DNA of 46,876 nt, taken from assembly GCA_944324265.1 (NCBI GenBank), contig CALUVS010000014.1:1-46876 (forward strand), written 5' to 3'. Source of the stretch: an uncultured Traorella sp. GTDB taxonomy: Bacteria > Bacillota_I > Bacilli_A > Erysipelotrichales > Erysipelotrichaceae. A program made the translations under genes and the position numbers. Positions 1-16,575 of this stretch are shown here, piece by piece. Position 1 is the first letter of the stretch; each line of letters starts with the position of its first letter. The notes under the pieces were generated by a model that worked only from the letters and a program-made list of their open reading frames with translations, was not told the origin of the DNA and did not search any database.

Positions 1-118
1 AAAAATAAAAAAATTCTCAAGCGATTTGAAATCGATGAGAAATACATTGATTCGACATCCAGAGCAGCGACAAAGGGGCTATAGTTATACAAATCGTTAA
101 AAGTTAAGGTTGCTTCAT
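1..118 (-). pseudogene. Possible frameshifted 5' end of a gene leaving the left edge
   Basis: On the minus strand an AGGAGG ribosome site stands 5 bases before an ATG at 118, but that frame stops after four codons (M-K-Q-P). The neighbouring frame, sharing the last base of the ATG, is open for about 38 codons to the window edge and reads like protein (E-A-T-L-T-F-N-D-L-Y-N-Y-S-P-F-V). One base added after the start codon would join the two. A good promoter lies upstream. I do not recognise the product. It could equally be a leader peptide or chance; only about 40 codons are visible. Confidence 0.25.
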
Positions 119-134
119 AACACCCTCCTAAAAC

Positions 135-177
135 AGACCTCATGGTCTATTATAGTCAAAGCAGACTGACTAGTCGA
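135..177 (-). promoter_or_regulatory. Minus-strand promoter with a palindrome at the start site
   Basis: Reading leftward, TCGACT (172-177), a 17-base spacer and TATAAT (149-154) make a good sigma-A-type promoter. A short palindrome, AGACC-TCAT-GGTCT (135-148), sits where transcription would begin and could be an operator or a leader hairpin. It points at the possible frameshifted gene at the left edge. Confidence 0.5.
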
Positions 178-233
178 CATTATTTTTGTGAAATTTATCT
201 GAAATATTGGAAACTGTTTCCGCTGGCAATTCT

Positions 234-305
234 AGGGGAATACTTGAAAATGCTTTTTATTGATGATAAACTTTTATCATACATAAAGTGTTTTTATCAT
301 GCATA
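234..305 (+). promoter_or_regulatory. Promoter and operator-like repeats of the polysaccharide operon
   Basis: The block AGGGGAATACTTG, 18 bases, then GATAAACTTTT (234-275) contains TTGAAA (244-249), a 17-base spacer and TAAACT (267-272). The same block with the same spacing lies before the second c-di-GMP operon (11807-11848). A perfect inverted repeat, ATGATAAA/TTTATCAT (263-270 and 273-280), covers the -10 box. A second copy of the right-hand part, TTTTATCATRCATA, follows exactly 20 bp later (272-285 and 292-305). This arrangement suggests a dimeric regulator plus an extra half site. The leader from about 279 to 398 shows no recognisable c-di-GMP riboswitch. Confidence 0.6.
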
Positions 306-398
306 TAATTAATTGATATTTTCCTTTAAATAGAAAATGAATCAGAGGAGATATTTGTTTATAGACAATAGATTTTTTTATTTTCTGGAGGTGATGAA

Positions 399-1094
399 AT
401 GAATGAAGTGTATCGAGAAGAAAAGAAATATCTGATGAACTTATTGGATATGGTTCAGCTTTCGATGCTGCTTGAATCGGTCATGATCCAGGATGTTCAT
501 AATGGAGCACAAGGATATCGCATTCGCTCACTCTATTTTGATACAATTGATGAAAAGGATTATGAAGAAAAATTGGATGGCATTGAAAAACGCAGAAAAA
601 TTAGACTGCGCATTTATGATCCTGATAATGATTTTGCCATGCTGGAAATGAAACAGAAAGAGGGAGCTTATCAGAAAAAGCGATCGCTTCGCTTATCAAG
701 AGAAGATGCAATTGAGGTTTCAAAGGGAAACTATAACTGTTTATTGAATTATGAAGATCCCTTTGCAATAGAATGTTATGGATTGATGCATTGGCAATGC
801 TATCGTCCGAAAACAATTGTGGAATATAAACGCAAAGCCTTTATTGCGAAAGAAAATCGGATTCGAATTACTTTTGACAGTGAAATCAGAGCCACAGAAA
901 CAAATTTAGATCTATTTAGTCATAATCTGAATATGTATCCTGTATTGGATATGTTCAACAGTGTGCTGGAAGTCAAATACAATGGATTTCTGCTGAGCTA
1001 TATCAAAGATCTGGTCAATGAGAGCAATCGCTCAGAGTTATCTGTCAGCAAATATTGTTTGGCCAGAAGTGCAAGCATGAAGTTTGGGTTTTAA
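399..1094 (+). CDS. VTC-domain protein (polyphosphate polymerase-like)
   Basis: This 231-residue protein fits the bacterial VTC family, a branch of the triphosphate-tunnel (CYTH-like) fold whose yeast member Vtc4 makes polyphosphate from ATP. The tunnel motifs are all visible: E-E-K-K-Y near residues 7-11, the basic strand R-R-K-I-R-L-R (65-71), E-x-K-x-K (83-87), V-E-Y-K-R-K, and the late acidic strand V-L-E-V-K-Y. There is no signal peptide or membrane segment, so it should act in the cytosol. A strong GGAGGTGA site sets the start. It is the first gene of a long operon; VTC, DUF4956 and CotH genes are commonly neighbours in bacteria. Whether it polymerises phosphate or uses a triphosphate substrate for another purpose cannot be told from sequence. 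Confidence 0.85.
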   Translation: MNEVYREEKKYLMNLLDMVQLSMLLESVMIQDVHNGAQGYRIRSLYFDTIDEKDYEEKLDGIEKRRKIRLRIYDPDNDFAMLEMKQKEGAYQKKRSLRLSREDAIEVSKGNYNCLLNYEDPFAIECYGLMHWQCYRPKTIVEYKRKAFIAKENRIRITFDSEIRATETNLDLFSHNLNMYPVLDMFNSVLEVKYNGFLLSYIKDLVNESNRSELSVSKYCLARSASMKFGF

Positions 1095-1108
1095 GGGGAG
1101 GAATGGTT

Positions 1109-2554
1109 GTGAGAAAGAAATGTTTGAATATTTTCTTATCGATTTCCCTGATTCTGTGCGTGAGTGCCTGTACATCTCAGGTGCAATTATCTGAACCACA
1201 GAATGTTACTGCAGTTTTATCGGCAGATAATACGGTTGAACTTCATTGGGAAGAGGTAGAGGAAGCAGAAAATTATCGTATCTATCGAAAAAATGAGGAC
1301 GATGAGAGCTTTCGCTATTTGATTGATGTCAGTGATACTTCGTATCAAGATAAACGAGTAGATGCCGGAGAAAGTTATATTTATAAAGTGAGTGCATTAA
1401 ATGCCAAAGAGGAATCAGAGGCATCGGTGAGTGCTGTTGTTGAGATTACAGGACAGCCAGTGATACAGGAACCTATTGTCTTGACTGCACCGACCATTAC
1501 CTCTGTAACGGCAATGGATAAATACACGAATGTCATCATTTTTGAAGATGAAAATGAAGATTGTACTTATCAGATCATGCGCTCAACAAGTCAAAATGGT
1601 GAATATGAATTAGCAGGAACGACAGAAGATAAAGCTTTCTACGATGAAGCTTACGGCACAAGTTATTATTACACTGTAAAAGCAATAAAAGAGAATTCAG
1701 AAAGTGAAGCTTCTGAGCCTGTTCTTACCGGTACCAATGCAAAGCAGGTTGTTGGGGTTCCAGTCATCATGTATCACGAATTTGTAACTGAAGAAGATTT
1801 AGCAAATGGTGTTCTTTTTGATGAATATGCTATTTATAAAGATGAATTTGAAAGTGATCTGAAATGGTTAAAAGAAAATGGCTATACAACGATTACAACT
1901 AAAGAACTGATTAATTATTTAGAGGGAAATGGCACACTTCCGGAAAAGCCGATTATCTTGACAATCGACGATGGAAAATATGGAGTATATAAAAATGCTT
2001 ATCCGCTTTTGCAAGAATATGACATGAAAGCAGTTTTGGCTGTCATTGGTGAAAGAATTCAAACTGCTACTGAAAACCCAGAGACACGCACAGATCCGCA
2101 AGCACCATATTGCACATGGGAAGAAATTGCAGAGATGTCACATTCCGGACATGTGGAGATTATCAGTCATACTTATGGTTTACATGTATACAATCATGAT
2201 AATCGTCAAGGGGCAAATACCGCAGAAGGAGAAACAAGTGAAGAATATTTTCCAGCTGCTTATGAGGATTATCGAACAATAAAATACTATTTTGAAAAAT
2301 ACAATATAGAGTTACCATTTTCTCAATGTTATCCATATTCCATCAGAAGTGATGAAGCGGATGATGCTTGGCTGGACAGCGGATATAAACTTTTACTTTC
2401 AGGAGACAGTGTAGAGGCTCGTGCAAGTCATTACAATTTTTTCATACAAGAAGCTGGAATAAATCATGAATCTGCTTTGATGCGTAGGCTTGTTCGCATG
2501 CATGGAACATCATTGAGTGAATATATTCTTGATGCCATTGAAGAAGACAGTTAG
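1109..2554 (+). CDS. Lipoprotein with two FN3-like domains and a NodB polysaccharide deacetylase domain
   Basis: I start this gene at GTG 1109, 7 bases after GGGGAGG; an ATG two codons earlier is too close to that site. The N-terminus is a lipoprotein signal with lipobox V-S-A-C (Cys21), so the protein should be anchored on the outer face of the membrane. Two fibronectin type III-like repeats follow (about residues 28-110 and 125-210), then a polysaccharide deacetylase (CE4/NodB) domain starting at G-V-P-V-I-M-Y-H. Catalytic motifs are T-I-D-D-G, with Ile where Phe is usual, and S-H-T-Y-G-L-H for metal binding. It probably removes N- or O-acetyl groups from the polymer made by the operon's glycosyltransferase, as PgaB or IcaB do in other systems. 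The substrate is inferred. Confidence 0.85.
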   Translation: MRKKCLNIFLSISLILCVSACTSQVQLSEPQNVTAVLSADNTVELHWEEVEEAENYRIYRKNEDDESFRYLIDVSDTSYQDKRVDAGESYIYKVSALNAKEESEASVSAVVEITGQPVIQEPIVLTAPTITSVTAMDKYTNVIIFEDENEDCTYQIMRSTSQNGEYELAGTTEDKAFYDEAYGTSYYYTVKAIKENSESEASEPVLTGTNAKQVVGVPVIMYHEFVTEEDLANGVLFDEYAIYKDEFESDLKWLKENGYTTITTKELINYLEGNGTLPEKPIILTIDDGKYGVYKNAYPLLQEYDMKAVLAVIGERIQTATENPETRTDPQAPYCTWEEIAEMSHSGHVEIISHTYGLHVYNHDNRQGANTAEGETSEEYFPAAYEDYRTIKYYFEKYNIELPFSQCYPYSIRSDEADDAWLDSGYKLLLSGDSVEARASHYNFFIQEAGINHESALMRRLVRMHGTSLSEYILDAIEEDS

Positions 2555-2564
2555 GGGGAAAAAT

Positions 2565-3260
2565 ATGAATCGAATATTATTGGAATTATTTGAAAATACA
2601 GGACAATTGATGCCGCAAGATATTATTCTGCGTTTGGTGATGGCAACTATCATTGCAGTATTTATTTTTATTTCTTATGCTTTATCTCATGAAGGAAGCA
2701 TTTACAGTAAAAAGTTTAACGTTTCTTTAATGGCTTTGACAATCATTACCACTACTGTCATGATTGTTATCGGCAATAATATTGCTTTGTCATTAGGGAT
2801 GGTCGGTGCGTTGTCTATTGTACGTTTCCGTACAGCAATTAAAGATTCACGAGATACAATTTACATATTCTGGACAATTGTAGCCGGAATTTGCTGCGGT
2901 GCCGGAGATTTCCTAGTGGCTACAGTGGGCAGTATCTTTACATTCTTGATTTTATTGATTTTCGGTCGAATCAGAAATGATAATCGAATGTTGATTGTTA
3001 TTCGCGGCGCTCGAGTAAACGAAGAACGAATTGAAGCTTTGATTTTCCAATATTTTGAACGAAAAGCAAATTTGAGAGTAAAGAATACGACAGATACCAG
3101 CATCGAATTTATTTATGAAATCAGTAAGCGTGTGATGGATCGCACTGAGAAAAAACATAAAGAAGATGCAAAGAAAAAAAGCTTTGTTGATGCTTTATAT
3201 GAAATCGGCAATATCGAATACTGCAATATTGTTATGCAGAATGATGAAATCAGCAGTTAA
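2565..3260 (+). CDS. DUF4956 family membrane protein
   Basis: This 231-residue integral membrane protein has about four or five hydrophobic segments (roughly 21-40, 52-87, 100-137) and a soluble C-terminal half of about 90 residues. The stretch G-A-L-S-I-V-R-F-R-T-A-I-K-D-S-R-D-T, between membrane segments, is the hallmark of DUF4956. The family has no established biochemical role that I can name, but it is recurrently found beside VTC and CotH genes, as here. The charged R-x-R-x-x-x-x-D-x-R loop is probably functional. The start is ATG 2565 after AGGGGG, only 10 bases after the upstream stop, which implies one transcript. A role in transport or assembly of the polymer or its phosphate-containing substituent is a guess. 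Confidence 0.8.
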   Translation: MNRILLELFENTGQLMPQDIILRLVMATIIAVFIFISYALSHEGSIYSKKFNVSLMALTIITTTVMIVIGNNIALSLGMVGALSIVRFRTAIKDSRDTIYIFWTIVAGICCGAGDFLVATVGSIFTFLILLIFGRIRNDNRMLIVIRGARVNEERIEALIFQYFERKANLRVKNTTDTSIEFIYEISKRVMDRTEKKHKEDAKKKSFVDALYEIGNIEYCNIVMQNDEISS

Positions 3261-3295
3261 TTGTTAATAGATTATATTGCAAAGGAGGTGCAAAG

Positions 3296-4753
3296 ATGAA
3301 ATATAAATTGATGGGGATTGTATCTATGATATGTTTATTGATCAGCGGCGTTGTGTTGACATCTGCAAAAAGTGATAATCCCAACAATCGAATTCATCAG
3401 CACCTGACAGCACAAGTTACCAGTGAGGATTGTGAGGGAGAGGAAGAATTCTGTACTCATTTGCCTCTGGTTATCATTGATACAGGCGGTGAAGAAATAC
3501 CAGGGGAACCAATTCGTGAAAATGGTTCTACAAGCTTTACCTTAACAGATGAAGGTGAAACCATGCTTTCTGCGAAAATTTCGATTATCAGTGATGAAAC
3601 AAAAGTACATCATTTAACCGATGAACCAGATTTAGAAAGTAATATTTTAATTCGAATCCGCGGAAATTCTTCTCGTAATTTTGATAAAAAAGGCTATTTA
3701 GTACGTTTGACTGACAGTGATGGTACTTATCGCAATGAAGAAGTGATGGGAATGGCAGCACACTATGAATGGGCTTTGCATGGTCCTTATTTGGATAAAT
3801 CCTTGATTCGAAATTATATGTGGTATAACATTGCGGGAGAAATTATGGATTATGCTCCCAATGTTCGATTTTGTGAAGTTGTATTAAATGGAGAGTATAT
3901 TGGACTATATGTCATGACAGAAACCATTACGAATGGTGAAGATTGCCGTGTGAATATATCAAAACCTGTTGCCGGATTAAATCAGACAGGCTATGTACTT
4001 CGATTAGATCGTGGCAGTAATAATTCTATGAAAAACTTAGATACTTTTACACATTATTCATTACGTAATTTACAGGAAATTGACATTCAATATCCTCGTT
4101 TTGGTGATCTGACTCCTGAATTAATAAATGCAATTGAACAGGATTTTTCAAATTTCGAAAAAAGTTTGTATTCATTTGATTATGATACCGATAATTATGG
4201 TTATTTCTATGATATCAATGTTTCCTCTTTTGTCGATTATTTTATAATCAACGAATTTACAACTAATTATGATGCAGGCTGGTTATCAACTTATGTTTAC
4301 AAAGATATTGGTGGAAAATATAATATGGTTATTTGGGATTTTAATTCAGCCTGCGATAATTATTCAGATTCTGTATTAAATCCTATGCATTTTGAAATGC
4401 AGTATAATATTTGGTACTATATGCTGACAAAAGATGAAAATTTTACAGATGAAATTATAAATCGATATAGAGAACTTCGAGAAACATATTTGAGTGAAGA
4501 TTATTTATATAACTACATTGATAAAACTGTTGCTTATTTAGGAGACGCTATTGATCGTAACTTTGAAGTTTGGGGCTATACTTTTGAAGAATTTTTCCCA
4601 TTAGAACCTGATGAACGTAATCCAAAGAATTATGAAGAAGCAGTCCAACAAATAAAGGATTTTATTCATGTGCGTGGTGAATGGATGGATGAGAATATTG
4701 AAATATTGCGTCAGTATAGTCATGAATCCAAAAATAAGAAATTTAATCATTAA
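3296..4753 (+). CDS. CotH kinase family protein, secreted or anchored
   Basis: This 485-residue protein has an N-terminal hydrophobic signal or anchor (residues 5-23) and a CotH domain. CotH proteins have an atypical protein-kinase fold; Bacillus CotH phosphorylates spore-coat proteins. Visible family landmarks are R-I-R-G-N-S-S-R-N-F-D-K-K (120-132), L-D-K-S-L-I-R-N (166-173), F-I-I-N-E-F-T-T-N-Y-D (316-326) and W-D-F-N-x-x-x-D (347-354), whose Asp348 and Asp354 would bind metal and ATP. No sporulation gene is nearby; the neighbours are polysaccharide genes, so a spore-coat role is unlikely. An extracellular kinase-like domain beside a VTC protein suggests phosphoryl-group chemistry on a cell-surface polymer or protein. 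That is inference. Start follows AAGGAGGTG. Confidence 0.85.
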   Translation: MKYKLMGIVSMICLLISGVVLTSAKSDNPNNRIHQHLTAQVTSEDCEGEEEFCTHLPLVIIDTGGEEIPGEPIRENGSTSFTLTDEGETMLSAKISIISDETKVHHLTDEPDLESNILIRIRGNSSRNFDKKGYLVRLTDSDGTYRNEEVMGMAAHYEWALHGPYLDKSLIRNYMWYNIAGEIMDYAPNVRFCEVVLNGEYIGLYVMTETITNGEDCRVNISKPVAGLNQTGYVLRLDRGSNNSMKNLDTFTHYSLRNLQEIDIQYPRFGDLTPELINAIEQDFSNFEKSLYSFDYDTDNYGYFYDINVSSFVDYFIINEFTTNYDAGWLSTYVYKDIGGKYNMVIWDFNSACDNYSDSVLNPMHFEMQYNIWYYMLTKDENFTDEIINRYRELRETYLSEDYLYNYIDKTVAYLGDAIDRNFEVWGYTFEEFFPLEPDERNPKNYEEAVQQIKDFIHVRGEWMDENIEILRQYSHESKNKKFNH

Positions 4754-4773
4754 ATGAAAGGAAGGGATATACC

Positions 4774-6909
4774 ATGAAAAAATTTATTATTGCGGCATGT
4801 ATAGTGGTAATGTCCCTTTTTATATGGAATTATGCTTATTATCATTTAGGAATTTATATAAGTTTGAATCCCGATGCACCTGTCACTACTTTTATGACAA
4901 CAGATGAAGATACAATTTATATGGAAAAGGATGGCGAAATGGCCCCTTTTGAAATCCGTGGTGTAAATATGGGGGTAGGACTTCCGGGAAAATGGGCGAC
5001 GGATTATGCGATTGATAAAGAAACCTATCTGCGCTGGTTTGAATGGATTCAAGACTTGGGTGCTAATACGATTCGTGTTTATACGATACTGCAGGATGAT
5101 TTTTATGATGCCTTTTATGAATACAATAAGGATCGAGAAGATCCATTGTACTTGATTCATGGAGTATGGGTGAATGATTATGTACAGAATTCTCATCGTG
5201 ATGCGTATGATGATGATTTTCGTCAGACATTATTGGATGATTGTCGAACAGTTGTGGATATACTTCATGGACAGAAAAATTTATCTTTAGGTTATGGATT
5301 AGGTTCAGGTACTTATCGCAGTGATATTTCTCAATGGGTGATTGGTTATATTTTAGGTGTTGAATGGGAAGATGTAACAGTAGTTTATACAGATCATAAA
5401 TATCCGGAACGCAATTCATATCAAGGCACTTATATGTATACGACAGAGGATGCAACATCGTTTGAAGCCATGCTTTGTGAGATTGGAGATAAAATCATTG
5501 AATATGAATCCAATCGATACAAAGAGCAGCGTTTAGTTGCTTTTTCCAATTGGCCGACAACCGATCCTTTTGATTATCCAGAGGATATTACAGAATTCTT
5601 TATGAAATGCGCCAAAGTCGATGTCGAACATATCCAAACTACAGAGAAATTTATTTCGGGTCATTTTGCTTCATATCATGTATATCCGTATTATCCGGAT
5701 TATTTGAATTATGAAAATGATATTCGTGGCTTTTCTTATACCGATGATGGACGTTTAAACACGTATTTGACTTATTTGAAACGTTTGACTGAACACCACG
5801 ATATTCCGGTTGTTATTTCTGAATATGGTGTCTCAACGGGACGAGGCATGGCGCAGCGAGACTACAATACAGGGCGAAATCAGGGTCATATGTCAGAAGA
5901 TGAACAGGGTCAGGCGATTATTGAGTGTTATGAAGATATCATGGAGGCAGGATGTGCCGGCAGTATTGTCTTCACATGGCAGGATGAATGGTTCAAACGT
6001 ACATGGAACACGATGCATGCGGTAGATCTGTTAAATACGCCTTATTGGAGTGACTATCAGACCAATGAACAATATTTTGGATTATTAGCTTTTGATCCGG
6101 GTGAAGAGGAAAGTGTCAGCTATGTGGATGGAGATGTCAGTGAATGGGAAGAAAGTGATATTGTCTCTGTCAATGGAGATACTTCTATATCCATGAAATA
6201 TGATGAGAAGTTTATTTACTTTATGATTCATAAAGAAGATTTTTCTGAATCTGATCAATTATATATTCCGATTGATATTACACCAAAAACTGGCAGTACG
6301 TATTGTGAAAATTATGATCTCACTTTTGAAAATGCATCTGATTTTTTGATTGTCATTGATGGAAGGGAAAATAGCCGTGTATTGGTGCAGGAACGTTATG
6401 AGGTACTGCGTGCAATGTTTTTGCATGAAACAGAAGATAGAGATGCTTTTATTGATCCAGTAGATAAAGACACACCTGTTTTCAAACCAATTCACTTGAT
6501 GCTTCAAACAGCGACACCGCTGCTGACAGGAAATTGGCAGGCTTCTTCTGAAACTTATGAAACAGGTCTATTGACTTATGGCAATGCCAATCCAAGTGAT
6601 GAAGATTTTAATTCTTTGGCTGATTTTATTTTTAATGGTGAATACATTGAAATTAAATTGCCTTGGCAGTTATTGAATTTCGCTAATCCATCTGAAATGA
6701 TGGTGCATGATGATTATTATGAAAACTATGGTGTGGAATATATTCACATTGACGAACTGCAGGTAGGAATTGCCGACAGTGAAAATGCAGAATACCGTAT
6801 CCCAATGGATTCTTTCGCATTAGAAGGATGGGGAAGAAATGTTACTTATCATGAAAGATTAAAAGAATCTTATTATATTCTGAAAGATTATTGGGCATCG
6901 ATTGATTAA
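4774..6909 (+). CDS. Membrane-anchored glycoside hydrolase-like protein with DOMON/CBM9-like C-terminus
   Basis: The 711-residue product begins with a signal anchor (residues 3-20), so the bulk is extracellular. Residues 55-400 look like a clan GH-A (GH2/GH5-like) TIM barrel: E-I-R-G-V-N-M-G opens it, G-A-N-T-I-R-V-Y-T marks beta-2, G-Y-I-L-G-V-E-W (Glu197) is a likely acid/base strand, and V-V-I-S-E-Y-G (Glu350) a likely nucleophile strand. The residue before Glu197 is Val rather than the usual Asn. The C-terminal third contains V-D-G-D-V-S-E-W, typical of DOMON/CBM9-like carbohydrate-binding domains. A polymer-trimming hydrolase is common in exopolysaccharide operons (BcsZ, PelA, PslG). The bond it cuts is unknown. 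Confidence 0.7.
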   Translation: MKKFIIAACIVVMSLFIWNYAYYHLGIYISLNPDAPVTTFMTTDEDTIYMEKDGEMAPFEIRGVNMGVGLPGKWATDYAIDKETYLRWFEWIQDLGANTIRVYTILQDDFYDAFYEYNKDREDPLYLIHGVWVNDYVQNSHRDAYDDDFRQTLLDDCRTVVDILHGQKNLSLGYGLGSGTYRSDISQWVIGYILGVEWEDVTVVYTDHKYPERNSYQGTYMYTTEDATSFEAMLCEIGDKIIEYESNRYKEQRLVAFSNWPTTDPFDYPEDITEFFMKCAKVDVEHIQTTEKFISGHFASYHVYPYYPDYLNYENDIRGFSYTDDGRLNTYLTYLKRLTEHHDIPVVISEYGVSTGRGMAQRDYNTGRNQGHMSEDEQGQAIIECYEDIMEAGCAGSIVFTWQDEWFKRTWNTMHAVDLLNTPYWSDYQTNEQYFGLLAFDPGEEESVSYVDGDVSEWEESDIVSVNGDTSISMKYDEKFIYFMIHKEDFSESDQLYIPIDITPKTGSTYCENYDLTFENASDFLIVIDGRENSRVLVQERYEVLRAMFLHETEDRDAFIDPVDKDTPVFKPIHLMLQTATPLLTGNWQASSETYETGLLTYGNANPSDEDFNSLADFIFNGEYIEIKLPWQLLNFANPSEMMVHDDYYENYGVEYIHIDELQVGIADSENAEYRIPMDSFALEGWGRNVTYHERLKESYYILKDYWASID

Positions 6910-6926
6910 AGAAAGGGGGCATCACG

Positions 6927-8027
6927 ATGGGCGTAGAAGTTATGATTTATATTTACGGAGCAATCTGTTTCAGTATGATCATATTCAATATCGTTTATGG
7001 TATTCTGATGCGCAGAAGTGAGCCCCGAATGAATAAGAAAATCAAGCGATTGCAGAAGAAGATTGATGTACAGTTTGAAAATATTCGTGCCGGAAAACCG
7101 GTGGATTCCAAGCATTTAAATTATCTTGAGCATAAATGTAAACATGTGAATTATTTGATTGCTTTCAATGAAATATTAAATGGTATGATTGAGAAGGAGA
7201 ATGTAGTTTACAGTCAATATCTATATCAGATTCGTTCGGTAATCTTATATCTGGCTGTTTCTTATCAGAAAAAAGAAAATATGCAGGCAGGATATTTTTC
7301 ATATTTCTTAATAAAATATGCGAAGAAAACACAATTGCCGATTGATTCTATTCAAGATATTTTATTGAAATATGTAGAGAAGGATAATTTTTACTGCCGA
7401 GTGAATGCACTAGATGCTTTATATGCTTATGGCAATACCGATAATGTAGTCGAAGCCTTGAAGATTCAGGATGATCAGAAAGTCTTTGTGCATGAGAAGA
7501 TATTGACTGAAGGATTGCTTTCTTTCAGCGGCAGTCATGATGAATTGATTGCACATTTGTGGAAAGATTTCAATCAGTTCTCGGTGCATACGCAATTAGC
7601 CATCTGCAATTATATCCGTTTTTATTCAGGAAAATATAAGAAAGAAATGCTGGAAATTCTGCAAGATGAACGTCAAGATAAGGAGCTGCGTCTTTCAGCG
7701 ATTCGCTACTTTGGTAAGTATACGGATGACTCAGCTTTGAAAATTCTCTTGGCATTTGCGAAAGACAAAGATCCGGCTCATTGGGAATATGCGAATGTGG
7801 CTGTGAGCTCTTTGGCTCGCTATTCTGGACAGGAAGTAGTTGATACTTTAAAAGATGCTCTGCATAGTTCAAATTGGTATGTGCGTTATTCAGCGGCTAT
7901 CAGTCTGGAAGCTCATCATGTTGATTTCAGTGATTTGATTGATATTGTTGCCGGCAATGATCGCTATGCGCGTGAAATGCTGATGTATCGGCTGGAAACT
8001 GCTCAGCTGCAGAAGGCTAGGGGGTAG
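6927..8027 (+). CDS. Membrane-anchored HEAT-repeat protein
   Basis: This 366-residue protein has one N-terminal membrane segment (about residues 5-27), then a basic linker and an all-helical body ending in clear HEAT-like repeats (roughly 235-350) with the recurrent pattern W-Y-V-R-Y-S-A-A-I-S-L and A-x-x-x-L-x-x-x-x. The chain after the membrane segment is basic, predicting a cytoplasmic body. It lies 17 bases after the hydrolase gene and 5 bases before the glycosyltransferase gene. HEAT arrays are protein-binding scaffolds, so it may dock onto or regulate the glycosyltransferase. No PilZ domain is found anywhere in the operon, so this protein is a candidate for linking c-di-GMP to synthesis, though nothing in its sequence shows nucleotide binding. 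Confidence 0.75.
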   Translation: MGVEVMIYIYGAICFSMIIFNIVYGILMRRSEPRMNKKIKRLQKKIDVQFENIRAGKPVDSKHLNYLEHKCKHVNYLIAFNEILNGMIEKENVVYSQYLYQIRSVILYLAVSYQKKENMQAGYFSYFLIKYAKKTQLPIDSIQDILLKYVEKDNFYCRVNALDALYAYGNTDNVVEALKIQDDQKVFVHEKILTEGLLSFSGSHDELIAHLWKDFNQFSVHTQLAICNYIRFYSGKYKKEMLEILQDERQDKELRLSAIRYFGKYTDDSALKILLAFAKDKDPAHWEYANVAVSSLARYSGQEVVDTLKDALHSSNWYVRYSAAISLEAHHVDFSDLIDIVAGNDRYAREMLMYRLETAQLQKARG

Positions 8028-8032
8028 AAGAC

Positions 8033-9436
8033 ATGACTGATTTTTTTAAGATGATCTTTGATTATATCGGAATATTTTTTATTCTCTATCTGATTGGCTA
8101 TTCCAGCTTTTTATTCTTATCGGTAACTGTAGGTTCTTCAACATTGTATCAGGTCAAACGCCGCAATAAGCTGAAAAATGAACTGCATCAGGATTATTAT
8201 GTACCGGTTTCCATTGTTGTTCCGGCTTATAACGAAGAAGTAACCATTGAAGCCAGCATTCGTTCTTTGCTTGCTTTGGAATATAAGCTTTATGAAATTA
8301 TTATCGTGGATGATGGATCCAGTGATAATACTTCTGCTGTATTGCAGAATGCTTTCCATATGCAGAAGGTTTCTCGTCCTATTCAGCGAAGAATTGCCTG
8401 TCAGCAGGAAGAAGCCATCTATGAAACCTATGAATTCAAAGTACCGATCACACTGATCCGCAAAAAAAATGGCGGTAAAGCAGATGCTTTGAATATGGGA
8501 ATCAATGCTTCCAAATATCCGTATTTTATCTGTATGGATGCGGATTCAGTGCTGCAATATGATTCATTGGAAAAAATCGTTCGCCCGGTTTTAGAGGAAG
8601 GGAATGTAGTAGCCGTCGGCGGCGCTGTTCGTCCCTGCAATGGAACTGAGATACAAGATGGACATGTCATTTCCTATCATATGCCTAGTAAGATATTACC
8701 TTGCATGCAGGTATTGGAATATGATCGTTCCTTTTTAGCTTCCAGAATCTTATTTGATAAGTTTAACGGCAGTATCATAATTTCAGGGGCATTCGGTCTA
8801 TTTAAGAAAAGTGTCGTAATAGCTGCCGGCGGCTATGATTCATCGACCATGGGAGAAGACATGGAACTGGTTGTCAAGCTGCATGTGTTCTGCCGTGAAC
8901 ATAACATGGATTATCGTATTCGTTATGCGACAGATGCCATCTGCTGGACACAGGCTCCGGAAAGTTTAAGAGATTTGTGCAAACAAAGACGTAGATGGCA
9001 TATCGGCTTATTTCAAAGTATGACAAGACACCGAAGAATGCTGATGAATCCCAAATATGGACTTGTCGGATGTATTTCTTATTTATACTTTTTGATTTAT
9101 GAGCTCTTGTCTCCTTATATAGAAATATTTGGTATATTTACGATTGCTCTTGCTTTTGCAGTTGACTTGATCAATGTACCATTTATGATCTTATTTTTCT
9201 TGATTTATGTGCTTTATTCTTCAATATTATCGTTAACGGCATTTTTTGCCCGTATTCATACCATTGATTTGAAATTGACTCCGATGGATGTCATCAAAGC
9301 TGTAGGACTTTGTGCTTTGGAATTGTCCTGTCTGCGTTTTATTTTGGCTTGGGTGCGTGCAACTGCCTTATTTGGGTATAAGAAAAAGAAAAATGCTTGG
9401 GGAAAAATAGAAAGAAAACAAATAAAATTTCGATGA
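8033..9436 (+). CDS. Processive family 2 glycosyltransferase (BcsA/PgaC-like)
   Basis: This 467-residue membrane enzyme should polymerise and extrude the operon's polysaccharide from a UDP-sugar. Motifs in order: a membrane segment (9-31), V-P-A-Y-N-E-E (63-69), V-D-D-G-S (92-96), K-N-G-G-K-A-D-A-L-N (145-154), the metal-binding D-A-D (169-171), G-E-D (274-276) with the catalytic-base region, and Q-R-R-R-W (318-322), the mark of processive synthases such as cellulose, hyaluronan and PNAG synthases. Three or four C-terminal membrane segments follow. There is no PilZ domain after them, so allosteric c-di-GMP control, if present, must come through a partner. The insertion at residues 105-135 between the DDG and GGK motifs is longer than I would expect. 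Sugar specificity is unknown. Confidence 0.9.
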   Translation: MTDFFKMIFDYIGIFFILYLIGYSSFLFLSVTVGSSTLYQVKRRNKLKNELHQDYYVPVSIVVPAYNEEVTIEASIRSLLALEYKLYEIIIVDDGSSDNTSAVLQNAFHMQKVSRPIQRRIACQQEEAIYETYEFKVPITLIRKKNGGKADALNMGINASKYPYFICMDADSVLQYDSLEKIVRPVLEEGNVVAVGGAVRPCNGTEIQDGHVISYHMPSKILPCMQVLEYDRSFLASRILFDKFNGSIIISGAFGLFKKSVVIAAGGYDSSTMGEDMELVVKLHVFCREHNMDYRIRYATDAICWTQAPESLRDLCKQRRRWHIGLFQSMTRHRRMLMNPKYGLVGCISYLYFLIYELLSPYIEIFGIFTIALAFAVDLINVPFMILFFLIYVLYSSILSLTAFFARIHTIDLKLTPMDVIKAVGLCALELSCLRFILAWVRATALFGYKKKKNAWGKIERKQIKFR

Positions 9437-9450
9437 TCTGGGAGGTATTT

Positions 9451-9936
9451 ATGAAAAAAGAAGATTTAAAATCCGGTTTGTTTGGTTATAAGAAAGCTAG
9501 TGTATTTCGTTATATTGCAGAAATTGAACAAGAATATTCTGAAAAAATCAATGAAAAAGAAATATTAGCTAAGAAAGCAGAAGAACAATATTTGATGCAG
9601 TATGCTGCTTTGGAAAAGGAACTGCAGGAAGCGCAGAATCAAATTGAAAATATGAAGCAGATGCTGGAAATGAAAGAAAAAGAGGCTGAGCAGGAAAAAA
9701 GAAATGCGGATATATTCAGAAAGAAATATGATGAAAAAGCAAAGGAAGCAGAACAAAAGCAAGCTAAGATTGAACGTATTGCTTCTGGTATGCAGGATTT
9801 GTTGAATGAAATTACGGATCGCTCTGCTCAGATTGATCTGCAGCCGGTTAAAACAGGATCAGAAGAGAATCGTGATTCCAAGGAAGAGAACAATCGAAAT
9901 ATGTCCATGTTTCAGCGCCGTGCTAATCAAGCCTAG
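9451..9936 (+). CDS. Coiled-coil protein, DivIVA-like N-terminus
   Basis: The start is ATG 9451 after GGGAGG; an upstream in-frame ATG inside the glycosyltransferase gene has no ribosome site. The 161-residue product has no membrane segment. Residues 8-30 (G-L-F-G-Y-K-K-A-S-V-F-R-Y-I) resemble the G-Y-x-x-x-x-V motif by which DivIVA/GpsB-type proteins recognise membranes, followed by about 100 residues of Glu/Lys/Gln-rich coiled coil and a short polar tail. Such proteins usually cluster at poles or septa and recruit partners, so it may place the synthase complex. It is in the same operon, 14 bases after the glycosyltransferase. The family assignment rests on a short motif and on coiled-coil character. 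Confidence 0.65.
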   Translation: MKKEDLKSGLFGYKKASVFRYIAEIEQEYSEKINEKEILAKKAEEQYLMQYAALEKELQEAQNQIENMKQMLEMKEKEAEQEKRNADIFRKKYDEKAKEAEQKQAKIERIASGMQDLLNEITDRSAQIDLQPVKTGSEENRDSKEENNRNMSMFQRRANQA

Positions 9937-9947
9937 AGGAAAAGAAT

Positions 9948-11774
9948 GTGGAAGATAAAGTAATTATATATGTGGCAGGCAATCCGGATGCTTATCCATT
10001 GGAATATTATGATGAACAGACGGAGTCTTATGCTGGGGTGATTCCTGAACTATTGAATGAATTTTCTGCAGAAAGCCGATATGAGATCATCTATTATCAG
10101 CCAAGCAGTACGGATCAGCGAGAGGATCTGGCCAAAAACAATCAAGTCGATGTTTTATCCGGTTATATGCTGGGGGATCGGCTGCCGGAGCACAGTGATG
10201 TCATACAGCTGTTTTCTGCAGTTCACGATGCTCAGGAAATTTCCTATTTTCTTTGCTTTACAGAAGCAGCTCCAACGGATTTTCAGCGGGATCTGACTGC
10301 TTTTATGGAAAATATCTCACAGGAAAGAATCAGCGGTATTTTGATGGATACAGCATTGCTTCCTCAAGATAATACACCTTTGTATTATACGATCGGTGCG
10401 TTGGTGCTGAGTATTGCACTGCTTGTCACAGTATCTGCAGTTATCATAAGAAAATATAAGCAGAAATTAGCTCTGGCACAAAGAAATTTAGAGGCTGATG
10501 ATGTCACGGGATTAGGAAATTTTGATTATTTGGAACGATATTATCATCAATTGGTCAATGATAAAACACGTATTCTTTATGAAATGGTTTATTTTCATGT
10601 AGATACAGATTACTTGCTTCGCATCAGCAGCAGTGAAGAGACCAATGACTTTCTGCGCCATTGTGCTTTGATCTTGCAGGAGCATACTTCTGATAATGAT
10701 GTTTTGGCTAAAGTATCGGATCAAGGATTTGCCTTGCTTCGCATGTCCAGCAATATTCAGAAATATGAAGATTGGCTTCAGCCAATTTTTGATCAGATTC
10801 ATGAATATCCTCAGAAATACAATAAGTCTTTTGATGTGAAATTGACTGCAGGTATTTATCCATTAAAAAAAGAAGACCGTGATCTCAACAGTATTATTTT
10901 TGATGCTTCTTTGGGAGCTGAATTAGCTGAAAGAGAAGAAAAAGACTTCATGATTTGTTCAGAACATGTACTCAATAAGCTTTCTGAAGATAAAATATTG
11001 CAGGCAAGTATTGAACAAGCCTTTGCCAAACATGAGTTTGAATTATATATTCAATTTTATGTCGATGCGGATTCCTATGAAGTGGTGGGCGGTGAAGCTT
11101 TATCACGCTGGAATCATCCGCAAAAAGGAATCTTGCTTCCAAATGTATTTGTTCCGATGATGGAAAAAGAGAAAATGATCAGCCGTCTGGACTATTATTG
11201 CTTAAATGAAGTCTGTGCCTTTTTAGAGAACTTAGTGAATCATGGCATTGAGACATTCTTTATGTCCTGTAACTTTTCTCGTGATACCTTTTCATCTGCA
11301 GATTTTGTTGCTCAGTGCAAAAAGATCATTGATGCTTATCAATTTCCAAGAGAATTATTGATCATGGAAATTACGGAGAGTGTAACAGTCAAGAATCTTG
11401 CTTTGATTCAACAGAATATTTTAGAATTAAAAGAATATGGTGTGCGCATTGCTTTGGATGATTTTGGAGAAGGCTTTACCTCTTTTTATGATCTGCAGAA
11501 ATATCCGCTGGATGGAATTAAATTAGATAAGTCATTGGTGGATAATGCTACTACTCAAAATGGACGAATCATTTTAAAAGCAATGATTCAGGTGGGGCAT
11601 GAATTGGGAATGACTATTTTAGCTGAAGGAGTTGAAACTGATGAACAGGTGAATGCTTTGCAGTCAATGCATTGTGATGTTATCCAAGGATTCCGTTTTC
11701 ATTACCCTTTGCCTGTTTGGAAAGCTAAGCAGCAACTCATTCATGCAGATATTCGCTTGAAAACAGGAAATTAA
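9948..11774 (+). CDS. c-di-GMP phosphodiesterase (EAL) with degenerate GGDEF and truncated solute-binding domain
   Basis: From GTG 9948 (AGAGGA site) this 608-residue protein has a periplasmic-binding-protein-like stretch (about 5-140; Y-A-G-V-I-P-E-L-L-N), one membrane segment (about 147-168), a GGDEF relic in which the signature is replaced by S-D-Q-G-F (257-261), and an EAL domain. The EAL motifs are intact: G-E-A-L-S-R-W (382-388), S-C-N-F-S, M-E-I-T-E-S, L-D-D-F-G-E-G-F, K-L-D-K-S and A-E-G-V-E-T. It should hydrolyse c-di-GMP to pGpG. The sensor domain is half the usual size and has no signal peptide; an in-frame stop at 9924 rules out a longer N-terminus. It closes the polysaccharide operon and presumably lowers c-di-GMP locally. 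Confidence 0.88.
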   Translation: MEDKVIIYVAGNPDAYPLEYYDEQTESYAGVIPELLNEFSAESRYEIIYYQPSSTDQREDLAKNNQVDVLSGYMLGDRLPEHSDVIQLFSAVHDAQEISYFLCFTEAAPTDFQRDLTAFMENISQERISGILMDTALLPQDNTPLYYTIGALVLSIALLVTVSAVIIRKYKQKLALAQRNLEADDVTGLGNFDYLERYYHQLVNDKTRILYEMVYFHVDTDYLLRISSSEETNDFLRHCALILQEHTSDNDVLAKVSDQGFALLRMSSNIQKYEDWLQPIFDQIHEYPQKYNKSFDVKLTAGIYPLKKEDRDLNSIIFDASLGAELAEREEKDFMICSEHVLNKLSEDKILQASIEQAFAKHEFELYIQFYVDADSYEVVGGEALSRWNHPQKGILLPNVFVPMMEKEKMISRLDYYCLNEVCAFLENLVNHGIETFFMSCNFSRDTFSSADFVAQCKKIIDAYQFPRELLIMEITESVTVKNLALIQQNILELKEYGVRIALDDFGEGFTSFYDLQKYPLDGIKLDKSLVDNATTQNGRIILKAMIQVGHELGMTILAEGVETDEQVNALQSMHCDVIQGFRFHYPLPVWKAKQQLIHADIRLKTGN

Positions 11775-11799
11775 CTGCTTTGAAAGAGCAGTTTTTTTT
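11774..11799 (+). terminator. Terminator of the polysaccharide operon
   Basis: ACTGCT (11774-11779) pairs with AGCAGT (11787-11792) and is followed by eight T residues. It overlaps the stop codon of the EAL gene and ends the first operon. Confidence 0.85.
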
Positions 11800-11806
11800 C
11801 TTTATC

Positions 11807-11848
11807 AGGAGAATACTTGCAATCAGTTCTTGATTTTGATAAACTTTT
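11807..11848 (+). promoter_or_regulatory. Promoter of the second c-di-GMP operon, matching the one at 234
   Basis: AGGAGAATACTTG, 18 bases, then GATAAACTTTT repeats the block at 234-275 with one change in 24 fixed positions. It contains TTGCAA (11817-11822), a 17-base spacer and TAAACT (11840-11845). The leader from about 11852 to 12030 has a partly symmetrical stretch, AACAGTATACTGTACTGTTT, near 11955-11974 but no riboswitch that I recognise. Confidence 0.6.
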
Positions 11849-12030
11849 TTAGAATAGTCAATCCATCTTTATTCAACATGTGTTATGATGAAGATGAATA
11901 AGACCGATAACCCTTACAGATAAAATCGTGATATACTTTTATTTGTGCTTAAAAACAGTATACTGTACTGTTTAGTTATTTTAATCATCAGTCAAATCTT
12001 GAATGTTGTATTGATTGAGGAGGGTATTGC

Positions 12031-14205
12031 ATGCATGGTGAAAATAAAAGGGGTAAAATATTTATTGCAGTTATTGCAGCACTGCTGATGACTATTGCAG
12101 CTGGCTTTTTTTACAATACTTCATTGTTTGAGAACATGCTGAATCAGATTGTTGAGCGCTATGTGCTGGAGGCCAATCATCAGTTAGCTGTGCAGGTATC
12201 TTATCAATTAAGATCCGGAGAAGAATTTGTCAAGGATCTTGCGGATTCATTGAGCCGGATGCCGCAGCATCTTGTTACAGAAGAATTTCTTGAAAGAAAA
12301 ACAGAGGCATTGGCTTTGAAGGGAATCTACATTGTTTCTTCTGATGGAGAAGTATTTCCAAAATTGCCTGAAGATGAGAATAAATTAACACAGTGGCTGG
12401 AAAGAAATCCGCAGATTTTTGATGAATACATGGTTTCCTATGAAAGAAAACCGGGACTGATTGTGTTCACTGCTCCTTTTACGCGTGAAGGAGAACAGAT
12501 GATTGTACTCGGAGCTCAAAATTATGAAAATCTGCAGTCACTTGTGGGTATGACAGATTATCAGGAACAAGGCTTAAGTCTATTATTCGATAGCGAAACA
12601 AATGAAGTACTGATGAGCGGTGAAGACGGTGCCATTGAGGTCGATGAATCTATGACTGCTTCGTGGATTCAGTCTTGGCATGATCAAATTACCCAGCCGC
12701 ATATTCATACAGAAAATATTGCAGGCATTGGAGAAGTTTATGTAGCTATTTGTAAAGTCGAATCTACTTCTTGGGTTCAGATGGCCATCATCTCTTCTGA
12801 ATTTTTAACGTCAAAAATACGTCCATATATGAATATATATGGTGTTTTGGCCATTCTTGTGCTTCTTGTTTTTGCACTGCTGATGTGGCGGCTTGTCAGC
12901 GAAAATAAGAAAAAAGAAATTATGTTCTCTACAGATCCTCTGACAGGCGGATATAATCGTCTTGGCTTTATTCAGGCCGCACATTCATTGGTCGATAATC
13001 GAAATTATTCTTTCTATGTGATTGTATATATCAATGTTGTTAATTTTAAATTGATCAATGAGAAATGGAGTGAAGAAGAAGGAAACAGAGTGCTTCAATT
13101 CATTTATCAGGTATTGAATCAGCATTTAAAAGAAAATGAACTGGTCTGCCGGTCAGGGATGGATCGTTATTTTCTGCTGTTAAAAGATAAAGAAGATCAG
13201 AATATTGCCATGCGCATTCAAACGATGATACAAAGCATACATGAACGTATTCAGCAATTATCCAGCTACGCCATGGATTTTTATATTGGTGCTTGCCGAA
13301 TTGAGGATGTTCACGCTTTTTCATCTGCCATTAATAAAGCAATTTTTGCCAGTCAAAGAGGAATAAATCATAATAAATGCATTTTCTACGACAAAGATAT
13401 TACCGAAGAATACAACCGAGAAAAGCTATTGAATGATCTTTTTGAGGAATCAATCCAAAATCGTGATTTTCAAGTTTATCTGCAGCCAAAAGTTTCTATC
13501 GGGCAGAATAAAGATTTTCAGGCTGAAGCCTTGATCAGATGGATTCATCCGGCTGAAGGAATAATTTATCCTTCCGAATTTATTCCTCTGTTTGAAAAAA
13601 ACGGCAAGATCGGACAATTGGATCTCTATGTGTTTGAGGAAGTTTGCCGATTGGAGAGCCAATGGATCAAGGAAAAGAAAGAACCGATTGCTATATCTGT
13701 GAATATATCACGATTTCATCTGCGCAATTCAGGAGTAGATATTTGGAAAAACTATCAGAAAATCAAACAGAAATATCATATTCCGGATGGCTTGATTGAA
13801 TTGGAAATGACCGAAACAATCATGCTGGAAAAAAATCAATTATCATTTGTGAAACAAGTGTTGGACGGCTTTCATTCCAGCGGCTTTCAAGTGGCCTTGG
13901 ATGATTTTGGCTTTGCCTATTCCTCATTGGCTTTACTGAAAGATTTTGAAGTAGATACGATGAAGCTTGATCGTGAGTTCTTTGTCAATGAAAATGAGAA
14001 ATCAAGAAAAATTGTTGCCAGCCTCATACAGCTAGCACATCATTTGGGCATGCATGTTGTTGCCGAGGGGATTGAAGAAGAAAGTCAAGTAGCGATGCTG
14101 CAGGAAATGGGCTGTGATTATATTCAGGGCTTTGTCTTTGCAAAACCAATGCCGATTGATGAATTTGAAAAATGGGGGGAAATGTATGAAGAAAACCAGT
14201 ATTAA
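12031..14205 (+). CDS. Membrane c-di-GMP phosphodiesterase: sensor, degenerate GGDEF, EAL
   Basis: This 724-residue protein has membrane segments at about 9-29 and 268-288 enclosing an extracellular Cache-like sensor with no recognised ligand. The cytoplasmic half starts with D-P-L-T-G-G-Y-N-R, but the cyclase signature is replaced by S-G-M-D-R-Y-F (375-381), so cyclase activity should be lost. The EAL domain is complete: A-E-A-L-I-R-W (498-504), V-N-I-S, M-T-E-T, L-D-D-F-G, K-L-D-R-E and A-E-G-I-E-E. It should degrade c-di-GMP; the dead GGDEF may bind GTP and regulate it, as in other tandem proteins. AGGAGGG precedes the start. The next gene, an active-looking cyclase, overlaps its last 20 bases, coupling synthesis of opposing enzymes. 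Confidence 0.9.
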   Translation: MHGENKRGKIFIAVIAALLMTIAAGFFYNTSLFENMLNQIVERYVLEANHQLAVQVSYQLRSGEEFVKDLADSLSRMPQHLVTEEFLERKTEALALKGIYIVSSDGEVFPKLPEDENKLTQWLERNPQIFDEYMVSYERKPGLIVFTAPFTREGEQMIVLGAQNYENLQSLVGMTDYQEQGLSLLFDSETNEVLMSGEDGAIEVDESMTASWIQSWHDQITQPHIHTENIAGIGEVYVAICKVESTSWVQMAIISSEFLTSKIRPYMNIYGVLAILVLLVFALLMWRLVSENKKKEIMFSTDPLTGGYNRLGFIQAAHSLVDNRNYSFYVIVYINVVNFKLINEKWSEEEGNRVLQFIYQVLNQHLKENELVCRSGMDRYFLLLKDKEDQNIAMRIQTMIQSIHERIQQLSSYAMDFYIGACRIEDVHAFSSAINKAIFASQRGINHNKCIFYDKDITEEYNREKLLNDLFEESIQNRDFQVYLQPKVSIGQNKDFQAEALIRWIHPAEGIIYPSEFIPLFEKNGKIGQLDLYVFEEVCRLESQWIKEKKEPIAISVNISRFHLRNSGVDIWKNYQKIKQKYHIPDGLIELEMTETIMLEKNQLSFVKQVLDGFHSSGFQVALDDFGFAYSSLALLKDFEVDTMKLDREFFVNENEKSRKIVASLIQLAHHLGMHVVAEGIEEESQVAMLQEMGCDYIQGFVFAKPMPIDEFEKWGEMYEENQY

Positions 14206-16093
14206 AAAATCCTTGCCTCGTTTAACAAAGATCATGATGCTGATTTTGATTTTATTGATCTTACCTGCTGATTTATGGCTGCAGCTGACTCTTCAGCATC
14301 ATAATCAGATGGAAAGTTCCATGGAATTGTTCGGACAGGTAGAACAACTGATTGAAAGCAATACGGAAATTCTTCAGCATGAAGAAGAAGAATTTAAGGA
14401 TATGTGCATTCGTGCAGCAGAAATGGCTGCCTATATTATCCGGCAGGATGTCACTGCCTTAGAAGATATGGACAAAATGAAAGAAATGGCAGAAAAGCTG
14501 AATGTCGAGGAGATTCACTTTTTTACACCGCAAGGAGAAATTGTTGCAGGAACAGATCCGGAATATTATGGCTATACTCTTTATTCCGGTGAACAGATGG
14601 ATTTCTTTTTGCCGATGCTGGAAGATCGGTCACTGAAGCTTTGTCAGGAAATTACAGCGAATACACCAGAAGGAAAACCAATGCAGTATGCAGCAGTTTG
14701 GATGGAAGATGGCAGCGGAATTGTACAGATCGGTATGAGTCCAGAGCATCATCTTCAGATGGTGAATCATAATCGTCTGCAGGCCATCTTTTCAGAAATT
14801 CCTTATGACTTACGAGGTTATCTGCATATTGTCGATGCTTCTGATAATACAGTTGTTGCTTCCAGCGATCAGCAAATGGTCGGTACAGATATGAGTGAGT
14901 TGATCAATGAAATGACTTGGGAAGAAGACTCTGTATTTTTCCATTCTTATATTGATGGTGAGAAGTTTTGTGTTTATGCAAAACTATATGATGAATACAT
15001 ATTGATTCGCAGTTATATTTCTTTCTATCCTACGATGACAGGTGTTATTTCTGCGGTTTTGGTTTTTATCTATATGATTGTGGCAACGATTGTTGTAATC
15101 AGCATCATCGGCTGGTATATTAAGAAAAGAATTTCCAATAATCTAGATCAGATTGTCAACGATCTGAAAAAGATTGAAGAAGGAGATCTGGAAAATATTA
15201 AACTTCATACGAATATTGCAGAATTTGATGAATTGATTTTCTATATCAATCAGTTATTAAAGAGTATTCGATTAAATTGGTTTAAAATGATTAATTTTGT
15301 CAATGTAGGTAATATCCCTGTCGGTATTTTTGAGTTCAACCAATTTTATAAAAAGATGTTCCATAATGAACGTTTGCTTGAAATTTTAGGTATCGATAAA
15401 AATGGATTTGATGATACAGAACTTCTGAAAATCGTTCGTCATAAAATACATGAAGCAGAAACTTCCTTGATCAATAAGGATGAGAAAATCTATCGTTATC
15501 AAAAAAAGAATCAATCAGTTTATTTGCGCATTGAAAAGCATACAGATGAACAGAGCATTACTTATTACATTACAGATGTTTCTGTATGGTGGACTGAATT
15601 AAATATGCTGAAGGAAAAAAGTTATACTGACAGTTTGACAAAATTGTACAATCGCCGCGGTTTCAAAAATATCATGAATGAATTGTTTGAACAGTCTGAA
15701 AATATCGGCATGGGAGTTATGATTGTTGTAGATGCCGATGGATTAAAGAAGGTCAATGATATTTATGGTCATCGCGCCGGTGATCGATATTTGAAGCGCA
15801 TTGCAGAGTTTATCAAGTCTTCTGTAGGTGAAAAAGCAGTTTGTGCACGTTTCGGAGGCGATGAATTCGTTATGTTTGTATATGGTTTTGATTCAGAAAC
15901 AGAAATTGAACAAATGATCAATCAACTGAAAAAACATCGTGGTATAGTTTTTATCAGTGATGAGGAACAGACGATTACTATTGAATATTCCATTGGTACA
16001 GCTCTATATCCGAAAGAAGGCAATAATTATCATATACTGATGAACATCGCTGATAAAAAAATGTATCAGGAAAAATTAGACAGAAAGCGATAA
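14186..16093 (+). CDS. Membrane diguanylate cyclase (sensor, HAMP-like, PAS-like, GGDEF)
   Basis: The start is ATG 14186 after GGGGGGA; the longer open frame from 14114 lies inside the previous gene. The 635-residue protein has membrane segments at about 15-35 and 286-309 around an extracellular sensor of about 250 residues, a HAMP-like linker (310-360), a PAS-like region (368-470) and a GGDEF domain (478-635) with D-S-L-T-K-L-Y-N-R-R and an intact R-F-G-G-D-E-F (555-561). It should make c-di-GMP from two GTP. The inhibitory I-site, RxxD in front of the signature, reads G-E-K-A (548-551), so feedback inhibition through that site is not expected. It is the only intact GGDEF in the window. Confidence 0.9.
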   Translation: MKKTSIKKSLPRLTKIMMLILILLILPADLWLQLTLQHHNQMESSMELFGQVEQLIESNTEILQHEEEEFKDMCIRAAEMAAYIIRQDVTALEDMDKMKEMAEKLNVEEIHFFTPQGEIVAGTDPEYYGYTLYSGEQMDFFLPMLEDRSLKLCQEITANTPEGKPMQYAAVWMEDGSGIVQIGMSPEHHLQMVNHNRLQAIFSEIPYDLRGYLHIVDASDNTVVASSDQQMVGTDMSELINEMTWEEDSVFFHSYIDGEKFCVYAKLYDEYILIRSYISFYPTMTGVISAVLVFIYMIVATIVVISIIGWYIKKRISNNLDQIVNDLKKIEEGDLENIKLHTNIAEFDELIFYINQLLKSIRLNWFKMINFVNVGNIPVGIFEFNQFYKKMFHNERLLEILGIDKNGFDDTELLKIVRHKIHEAETSLINKDEKIYRYQKKNQSVYLRIEKHTDEQSITYYITDVSVWWTELNMLKEKSYTDSLTKLYNRRGFKNIMNELFEQSENIGMGVMIVVDADGLKKVNDIYGHRAGDRYLKRIAEFIKSSVGEKAVCARFGGDEFVMFVYGFDSETEIEQMINQLKKHRGIVFISDEEQTITIEYSIGTALYPKEGNNYHILMNIADKKMYQEKLDRKR

Positions 16094-16141
16094 AAGTATA
16101 AGATTTCTTTTTGCATCCATTCTAAAAGAAAGAGGTGCATA

Positions 16142-16573: not shown

Positions 16574-16575
16574 AG

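Follow-up and report, generated by a model that had tools for sequence, protein, structure and literature searches.

The window analysed here is a 46,876-nucleotide stretch of DNA from an uncultured Traorella sp. of the Erysipelotrichaceae (contig CALUVS010000014.1, assembly GCA_944324265.1). Between positions 399 and 11774, nine co-directional open reading frames on the + strand form an operon coding for a HEAT-repeat protein and a glycosyltransferase of family 2 (GT2) together with VTC, DUF4956 and CotH proteins, referred to below as the cassette. Gaps between the genes are 5-35 bases, with internal start codons used, and a Shine-Dalgarno-like purine tract lies ahead of most starts. A first-pass annotation made from the sequence had described nine co-directional genes with these domains and gaps, and the open reading frames and Pfam matches bear it out. 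The start it gave for the coiled-coil gene, 9448, falls on a TTT codon; the likely start is the ATG at 9451.

The first gene (399..1094) encodes a 231-amino-acid protein with a VTC domain (Pfam VTC, 1.9e-41, 142.6 bits against a cut-off of 23), a predicted cytosolic polyphosphate polymerase. It is followed by an accessory lipoprotein with polysaccharide deacetylase and fn3 domains (1103..2554; Pfam Polysacc_deac_1 and fn3), an MgtC-like DUF4956 membrane protein predicted to be a translocator or regulator partner of VTC (2565..3260; Pfam DUF4956, 1.8e-12), and a secreted kinase-fold protein of the CotH family (3296..4753; Pfam CotH, 6.7e-57, 193.8 bits against 23.8). The fifth gene, gene5 (4774..6909), codes for a predicted membrane-anchored extracellular protein, which in the AlphaFold2 model is a triosephosphate isomerase (TIM) barrel of glycoside hydrolase clan GH-A, similar to family GH157, with a beta-rich C-terminal domain. 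The HEAT-repeat protein has an N-terminal membrane segment (6927..8027; Pfam HEAT_2, 1.4e-15), and the GT2 is a synthase of the processive type with DDG, DAD, GED and QRRRW motifs (8033..9436; Pfam GT2, 8e-31). Last come a coiled-coil protein whose N-terminus is weakly DivIVA-like in the alignment (9451..9936) and a membrane protein of the cyclic di-GMP (c-di-GMP) phosphodiesterase type with a degenerate GGDEF domain and an EAL domain (9948..11774; Pfam EAL 1.9e-59, GGDEF 2e-8). An intrinsic-terminator-like hairpin (9-pair stem and T tract) immediately follows the EAL stop codon and closes the operon (11773..11793, + strand). Neither gene5 nor the coiled-coil protein belongs to a significant Pfam family; DivIVA scored 15.2 bits against a cut-off of 28 in the coiled-coil protein and was sub-threshold in all four relatives as well.

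To determine how widely this arrangement occurs, we searched named genomes with the GT2 alignment. Close relatives are found in gut isolates and metagenome-assembled genomes (MAGs), including Ruminococcus, Flavonifractor, Faecalicatena faecalis, Solobacterium, Agathobaculum, Metalachnospira and others. All close relatives with upstream DNA in view encode VTC, DUF4956, CotH, gene5, HEAT and GT2, and nearly all keep this order. At one survey locus, L034, VTC lies beyond the EAL gene and is still linked to the operon. Many genera share this core order, so the operon is not a chance arrangement, and the earlier proposal that VTC, DUF4956 and CotH travel with the GT2/HEAT pair holds in this neighbourhood survey. 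Within the class, gene5 is present in 13 of 296 genomes, five of which, besides the window, encode it directly beside HEAT and GT2. The four GT2 motifs are invariant in five relatives and all processive-GT2 motifs are intact.

The trees agree with joint inheritance. In a VTC tree of 93 rows, the 15 sequences from HEAT-GT2 operons group into a single clade, with a Shimodaira-Hasegawa-like approximate likelihood ratio test (SH-aLRT) support of 100 and one change against 14.2 in shuffles. The 12 operon proteins in the DUF4956 tree are likewise one clade (one change, support 88). In the 47-row GT2 tree the operon clade has 18 members (SH-aLRT 100). The cassette is present in 15 of the 18 and in none of the 26 GT2s outside the clade; the remaining three are two contigs cut at gene5 (L018 and L031) and a long-branch MAG without a visible cassette (L067). 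The cassette genes were therefore not found to part from GT2/HEAT, VTC being a single clade and the GT2 clade coinciding with cassette presence. From these sequences, the HEAT-GT2 core apparently acquired the cassette a single time, and the lineage in which this happened is now widespread among gut Firmicutes.

Distant GT2 relatives in Bacillaceae and Paenibacillus have a HEAT protein in front and often gene5, without the cassette. Those from Neomarinimicrobiota or Polaribacter also have HEAT in front, with tetratricopeptide-repeat (TPR)/YaiO outer-membrane proteins and no cassette. Because distant GT2s have HEAT but no cassette, the sequences point to HEAT-GT2, which other phyla also have, as the older synthase core and to the cassette as a later addition; this too is new here. 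At two loci of Gram-negative lineages (L048:8736-12903 and L062:8712-14335) the TPR/YaiO proteins follow HEAT-GT2, possibly an export version of the synthase core. Long proteins containing a GT2 domain are encoded at L021:16727-19000, L060:8516-11416 and L061:8558-11428, the first of which joins an N-terminal helical-repeat-like part to GT2 in one protein, as if a HEAT-GT2 fusion. A Lachnoclostridium MAG (L095, not placed in the tree) encodes gene5-HEAT-GT2 with no cassette seen on a truncated stretch and a transglutaminase-like protein upstream (L095:5443-6291).

We also examined how the cassette genes are distributed in 392 genomes. VTC is encoded in 73, CotH in 76 and both in 52 (odds ratio 30, p 3e-29, a statistic that ignores phylogeny). 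VTC adjoins DUF4956 at 72 of 80 VTC loci, and among 14 control genomes the two were detected in the same three. Of 79 classified VTC loci, 31 have CotH nearby, 26 have Cthe_2159 (PF14262) and 22 have neither by these models; the two never occur together. The partner types cluster on the VTC tree (survey loci L140-L219). VTC and DUF4956 are thus a near-obligate pair with a third, predicted extracellular partner, often CotH or Cthe_2159, an association that is new here.

The regulatory genes differ between versions of the cassette. GGDEF genes accompany 10 of 15 synthase-type operons versus one of 30 CotH-only loci, and EAL genes nine of 15 versus none of 30. A sigma factor or RsgI is encoded at 11 of the 30 CotH-only loci. 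This split, with c-di-GMP genes at synthase-type operons and SigI/RsgI at CotH-only loci, is also new here. The Traorella genome has a second cassette (L196, contig C28 6000-24000), in which a sigma factor, an RsgI-like protein and an acidic-repeat lipoprotein with TDYGPNNDG repeats directly precede VTC-DUF4956-CotH; the family identity of genes like these was assigned in L214, L186 and L183. Acidic S/T/Y-D repeats lie beside six of 30 CotH-type loci versus none of 63 others (p 8e-4), and the acidic-repeat proteins at CotH-only loci are candidate CotH substrates. A third VTC gene in this genome (C49:5412-5633, L197) is truncated, with no adjoining DUF4956. The genome also encodes PPK1, which excludes VTC as the sole polyphosphate enzyme of the cell. 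VTC is therefore not the only predicted enzyme of this kind and may be dedicated to the operon.

Further c-di-GMP genes neighbour the operon. The window begins where the contig begins, leaving 398 bases ahead of VTC; in a genome of the same genus (L149) a GGDEF gene is immediately upstream of VTC. On the 3′ side a GGDEF-EAL protein (12031..14205, + strand; Pfam EAL 1.1e-61, GGDEF 1.8e-18) and a membrane GGDEF protein with an intact motif, RFGGDEF in translation (14114..16093, + strand), a predicted diguanylate cyclase, are encoded. The former is likely part of the same regulatory circuit as the operon, and EAL-type genes are also found 3′ of the operon in L030 and L032. An Rfam scan of positions 1-17000 of the window gave no element.

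VTC and CotH both keep conserved active-site residues. In 94 bacterial VTCs, E8, K10, K67, R69, R71, E83, K85, K87, K94, R145, R156, D160, E191, K193 and K218 are at least 98% conserved; they correspond to the VTC4 tunnel and, beyond the printed alignment, presumably to individual catalytic residues of VTC4. A single-sequence search of solved structures gave no match for the operon VTC, and with the alignment profile the top solved relative was VTC4 (1.6e-16). With the domain and the tunnel residues both present, the protein is predicted to be a polyphosphate polymerase. Like the yeast VTC complex it has the conserved tunnel residues and its best solved profile match is to VTC4, but it lacks an SPX domain and a VTC1-type membrane part; its membrane partner would be DUF4956. 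The N-terminus is hydrophobic and of the export type in 43 of 44 cassette CotHs, and the family active site is present in the operon protein, in that D326 and D348 are conserved and line up with the CotH structure 5JD9. N-terminal export or anchor segments are predicted for both CotH and gene5.

DUF4956 was modelled from eight sequences with a predicted local distance difference test (pLDDT) score of 75.5. The model has N-terminal helices followed by an ACT-like C-terminal domain, which resembles MgtC C-terminal domains (Z 8.6-9.0); Pfam MgtC gave a sub-threshold match (19.5 bits against 31.4). No informative fold match was found for the transmembrane part, so that the comparison is effectively one of the C-terminal domain. 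By this model DUF4956 is MgtC-like, which is new here.

The model of gene5 is a confident barrel (pLDDT 87.5). Its nearest fold is GH157 (Z 30.7, root-mean-square deviation 2.5 Å over 312 residues), ahead of GH2 enzymes (Z about 27), by fold comparison only; identity to GH157 is 18-19%, and the sequence profile found no solved relative. E197 and E350 are intact in the window protein at barrel strand ends, presumably after strands 4 and 7, the positions typical of clan GH-A. By fold the gene5 barrel with its two glutamates comes closest to GH157; it differs in its C-terminal domain and in the loss of the nucleophile in several relatives. E350, the predicted nucleophile, is G, K or missing in five operon members (L034, L035, L040, L056 and L149); standalone and Bacillaceae relatives all keep it. 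Hydrolysis is therefore not needed in every carrier. The gene5 protein first described as hydrolase-like is thus a GH-A barrel with an added β-rich domain, and with the predicted nucleophile gone in five members, trimming of the polymer as a general feature is doubtful. Nor is deacetylation a property of the system. Among the operon relatives the deacetylase is present only in the window and L037, so it is an accessory and not a core part. It aligns with the E. coli PgaB deacetylase domain and stays below the PgaB (132.6 bits against 321.9) and IcaB (65.2 against 248.35) cut-offs. Another polysaccharide-deacetylase-like protein can be read in translation at 28632-29924 of the window, outside the operon.

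The operon resembles several known loci and differs in part from each. In strains of Clostridium perfringens linked with disease in chickens, NELoc-2 (CP4_0458-CP4_0468), reported in 2010, encodes in order VTC, a 226-aa 'tubulin' protein, CotH, a hypothetical protein of ~685 aa, HEAT and GT2 (PMC2879425). By the published gene table alone this is the VTC-DUF4956-CotH-~700 aa-HEAT-GT2 order of the present operon, with 'tubulin' in the DUF4956 position and the GT2 counterpart labelled 'chitin synthase'. Unlike the operon, NELoc-2 has the pair of VTC and the DUF4956-position gene duplicated around a resolvase and is preceded by a sigma factor/anti-sigma gene rather than by GGDEF; c-di-GMP enzymes are not reported from it. 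It is described as a pathogenicity-associated locus and was never assigned as a polysaccharide system (PMC2879425, PMC5964661, PMC11677781). A cotH gene, a polyphosphate polymerase and DUF4956 were also reported in 2020 contiguous with Gram-positive Pel loci, in bifidobacteria with a diguanylate cyclase/phosphodiesterase gene (PMC7112168). These share with the operon the accessory set beside synthase-dependent polysaccharide genes, but they have a Pel synthase (pelDEADAFG), a DUF4832 protein in place of gene5, and no HEAT-GT2. No Pel family was found among the nine proteins at E 0.001, and Pel is rejected on this feature. Cellulose (bcs/ccs) is rejected on the CelA score of the GT2 (36.2 bits against 699.1) and the absence of a Pfam PilZ match in it. 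The claim that the gene content is unlike known systems holds for the features tested of poly-N-acetylglucosamine (PNAG), cellulose and Pel. 'Uncharacterised' was right in the sense that the operon and its accessory set had been sighted, in NELoc-2 and beside Gram-positive pel, and not explained.

We consider it rather probable that the operon is a surface glycan system and that a phosphotransfer cassette is functionally tied to it, as a general reading and not for each step. The sequences support the earlier suggestion of a secreted or surface polysaccharide under c-di-GMP control. In a synthase-dependent machine, membrane-located GT2 would be the enzyme that polymerises a sugar, HEAT would be its cytosolic partner, and gene5 would be an anchored extracellular barrel, carbohydrate-active or carbohydrate-guiding. 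The coiled-coil protein may position the machine in the cell, and the c-di-GMP enzymes would set its activity. Inside the cell, VTC would make polyphosphate from ATP; its partner at the membrane would be DUF4956, whose most likely role is export of the polyphosphate, and extracellular CotH would pass phosphate on, either to surface proteins or to the polymer. What the sequences show directly is the content and order of the genes, their co-inheritance, the pairing of VTC with DUF4956, the conserved active-site residues and a predicted topology; the steps above, with the sugar and the CotH donor and acceptor, are inferred from these. Modification of the polymer with phosphate or polyphosphate, as first proposed, is somewhat better than a guess, judging by co-inheritance, conserved active sites and topology. 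There is little ATP outside cells, and for this reason, with the co-inheritance, polyphosphate suggests itself as the CotH donor. We tentatively propose that VTC-DUF4956 may be a minimal polyphosphate synthase-translocase whose exported product serves secreted CotH in ATP-independent extracellular phosphorylation. Its target here would be the HEAT-GT2 product or the machinery that makes it, and at other loci surface proteins with acidic repeats; where Cthe_2159 stands in for CotH, the partner would be a carbohydrate-binding protein. As a whole this scheme is possible rather than probable. In the literature we found no paper tying a CotH kinase to polyphosphate beyond listing both, in a search that mostly did not cover subscription papers, so that earlier work may exist.

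Several points weigh against a phosphate-transferring surface glycan system. The DUF4956 model is of moderate quality only, and to our knowledge MgtC-like proteins are not known as polyphosphate transporters. The correlation of pairwise distances among the six core proteins (r 0.78-0.94; VTC-GT2 0.93), which speaks for co-inheritance, for linked genes partly reflects shared species history. CotH occurs without VTC in 24 of the 392 genomes, and of the CotHs away from VTC those with the highest scores are likewise secreted and lipoprotein-like. A strict rule that secreted CotH occurs only with VTC is thus excluded; CotH is not VTC-dependent in general, and the polyphosphate donor is no universal rule. 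No acceptor protein with obvious repeats turned up in the synthase-type operons (acidic-repeat proteins in 0 of 15).

The cassette could instead be a regulator. CotH would phosphorylate the synthase complex or gene5, or with VTC and MgtC-like DUF4956 report phosphate or ATP status, switching the output of a polymer without phosphate. The MgtC-like fold suits a regulatory protein better than a channel, the NELoc-2 VTC and DUF4956-position transcripts fall together in vivo (PMC4983038), and CotH-based regulation was proposed by the Pel authors for streptococci lacking c-di-GMP (PMC7112168). However, synthase-type operons already have c-di-GMP enzymes, and a CotH predicted to be extracellular is awkward for control of a cytosolic synthase. 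We regard this explanation as unlikely. Less likely still is that VTC-DUF4956-CotH has a surface-protein function of its own and no more than a promoter in common with the polysaccharide genes. The cassette does occur alone, as in L196 with its sigma factor, RsgI and acidic-repeat protein, and HEAT-GT2 occurs without it in Bacillaceae and other phyla. Yet VTC and DUF4956 are each a clade of single origin with the synthase, the cassette coincides with the GT2 clade across many genera, and in L034 the VTC gene, though it has moved across the operon, is still linked. A divergent PNAG (pga/ica) system is very improbable: the PgaC-type GT2 and PgaB-type deacetylase fold recall it, and the top NCBIfam matches are PgaC/IcaA (156.1 bits) and PgaB (133 bits), but both are far under the curated cut-offs (422.3 and 322), nearly all relatives lack the deacetylase, a HEAT protein replaces PgaD/IcaD, and PgaC falls on a very long branch outside the family in the GT2 tree.

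On the favoured reading, of a surface glycan system linked with phosphotransfer, genes annotated as hypothetical become a testable system. It would be present in gut commensals and, going by the published gene table, in C. perfringens, where one survey had NELoc-2 in each of its necrotic-enteritis strains (PMC5964661). Searches that start from Bcs, Pga or Pel would overlook the HEAT-associated synthase family. VTC-DUF4956 with an extracellular kinase-fold partner offers a concrete way to approach how a secreted kinase could get phosphate where ATP is scarce.

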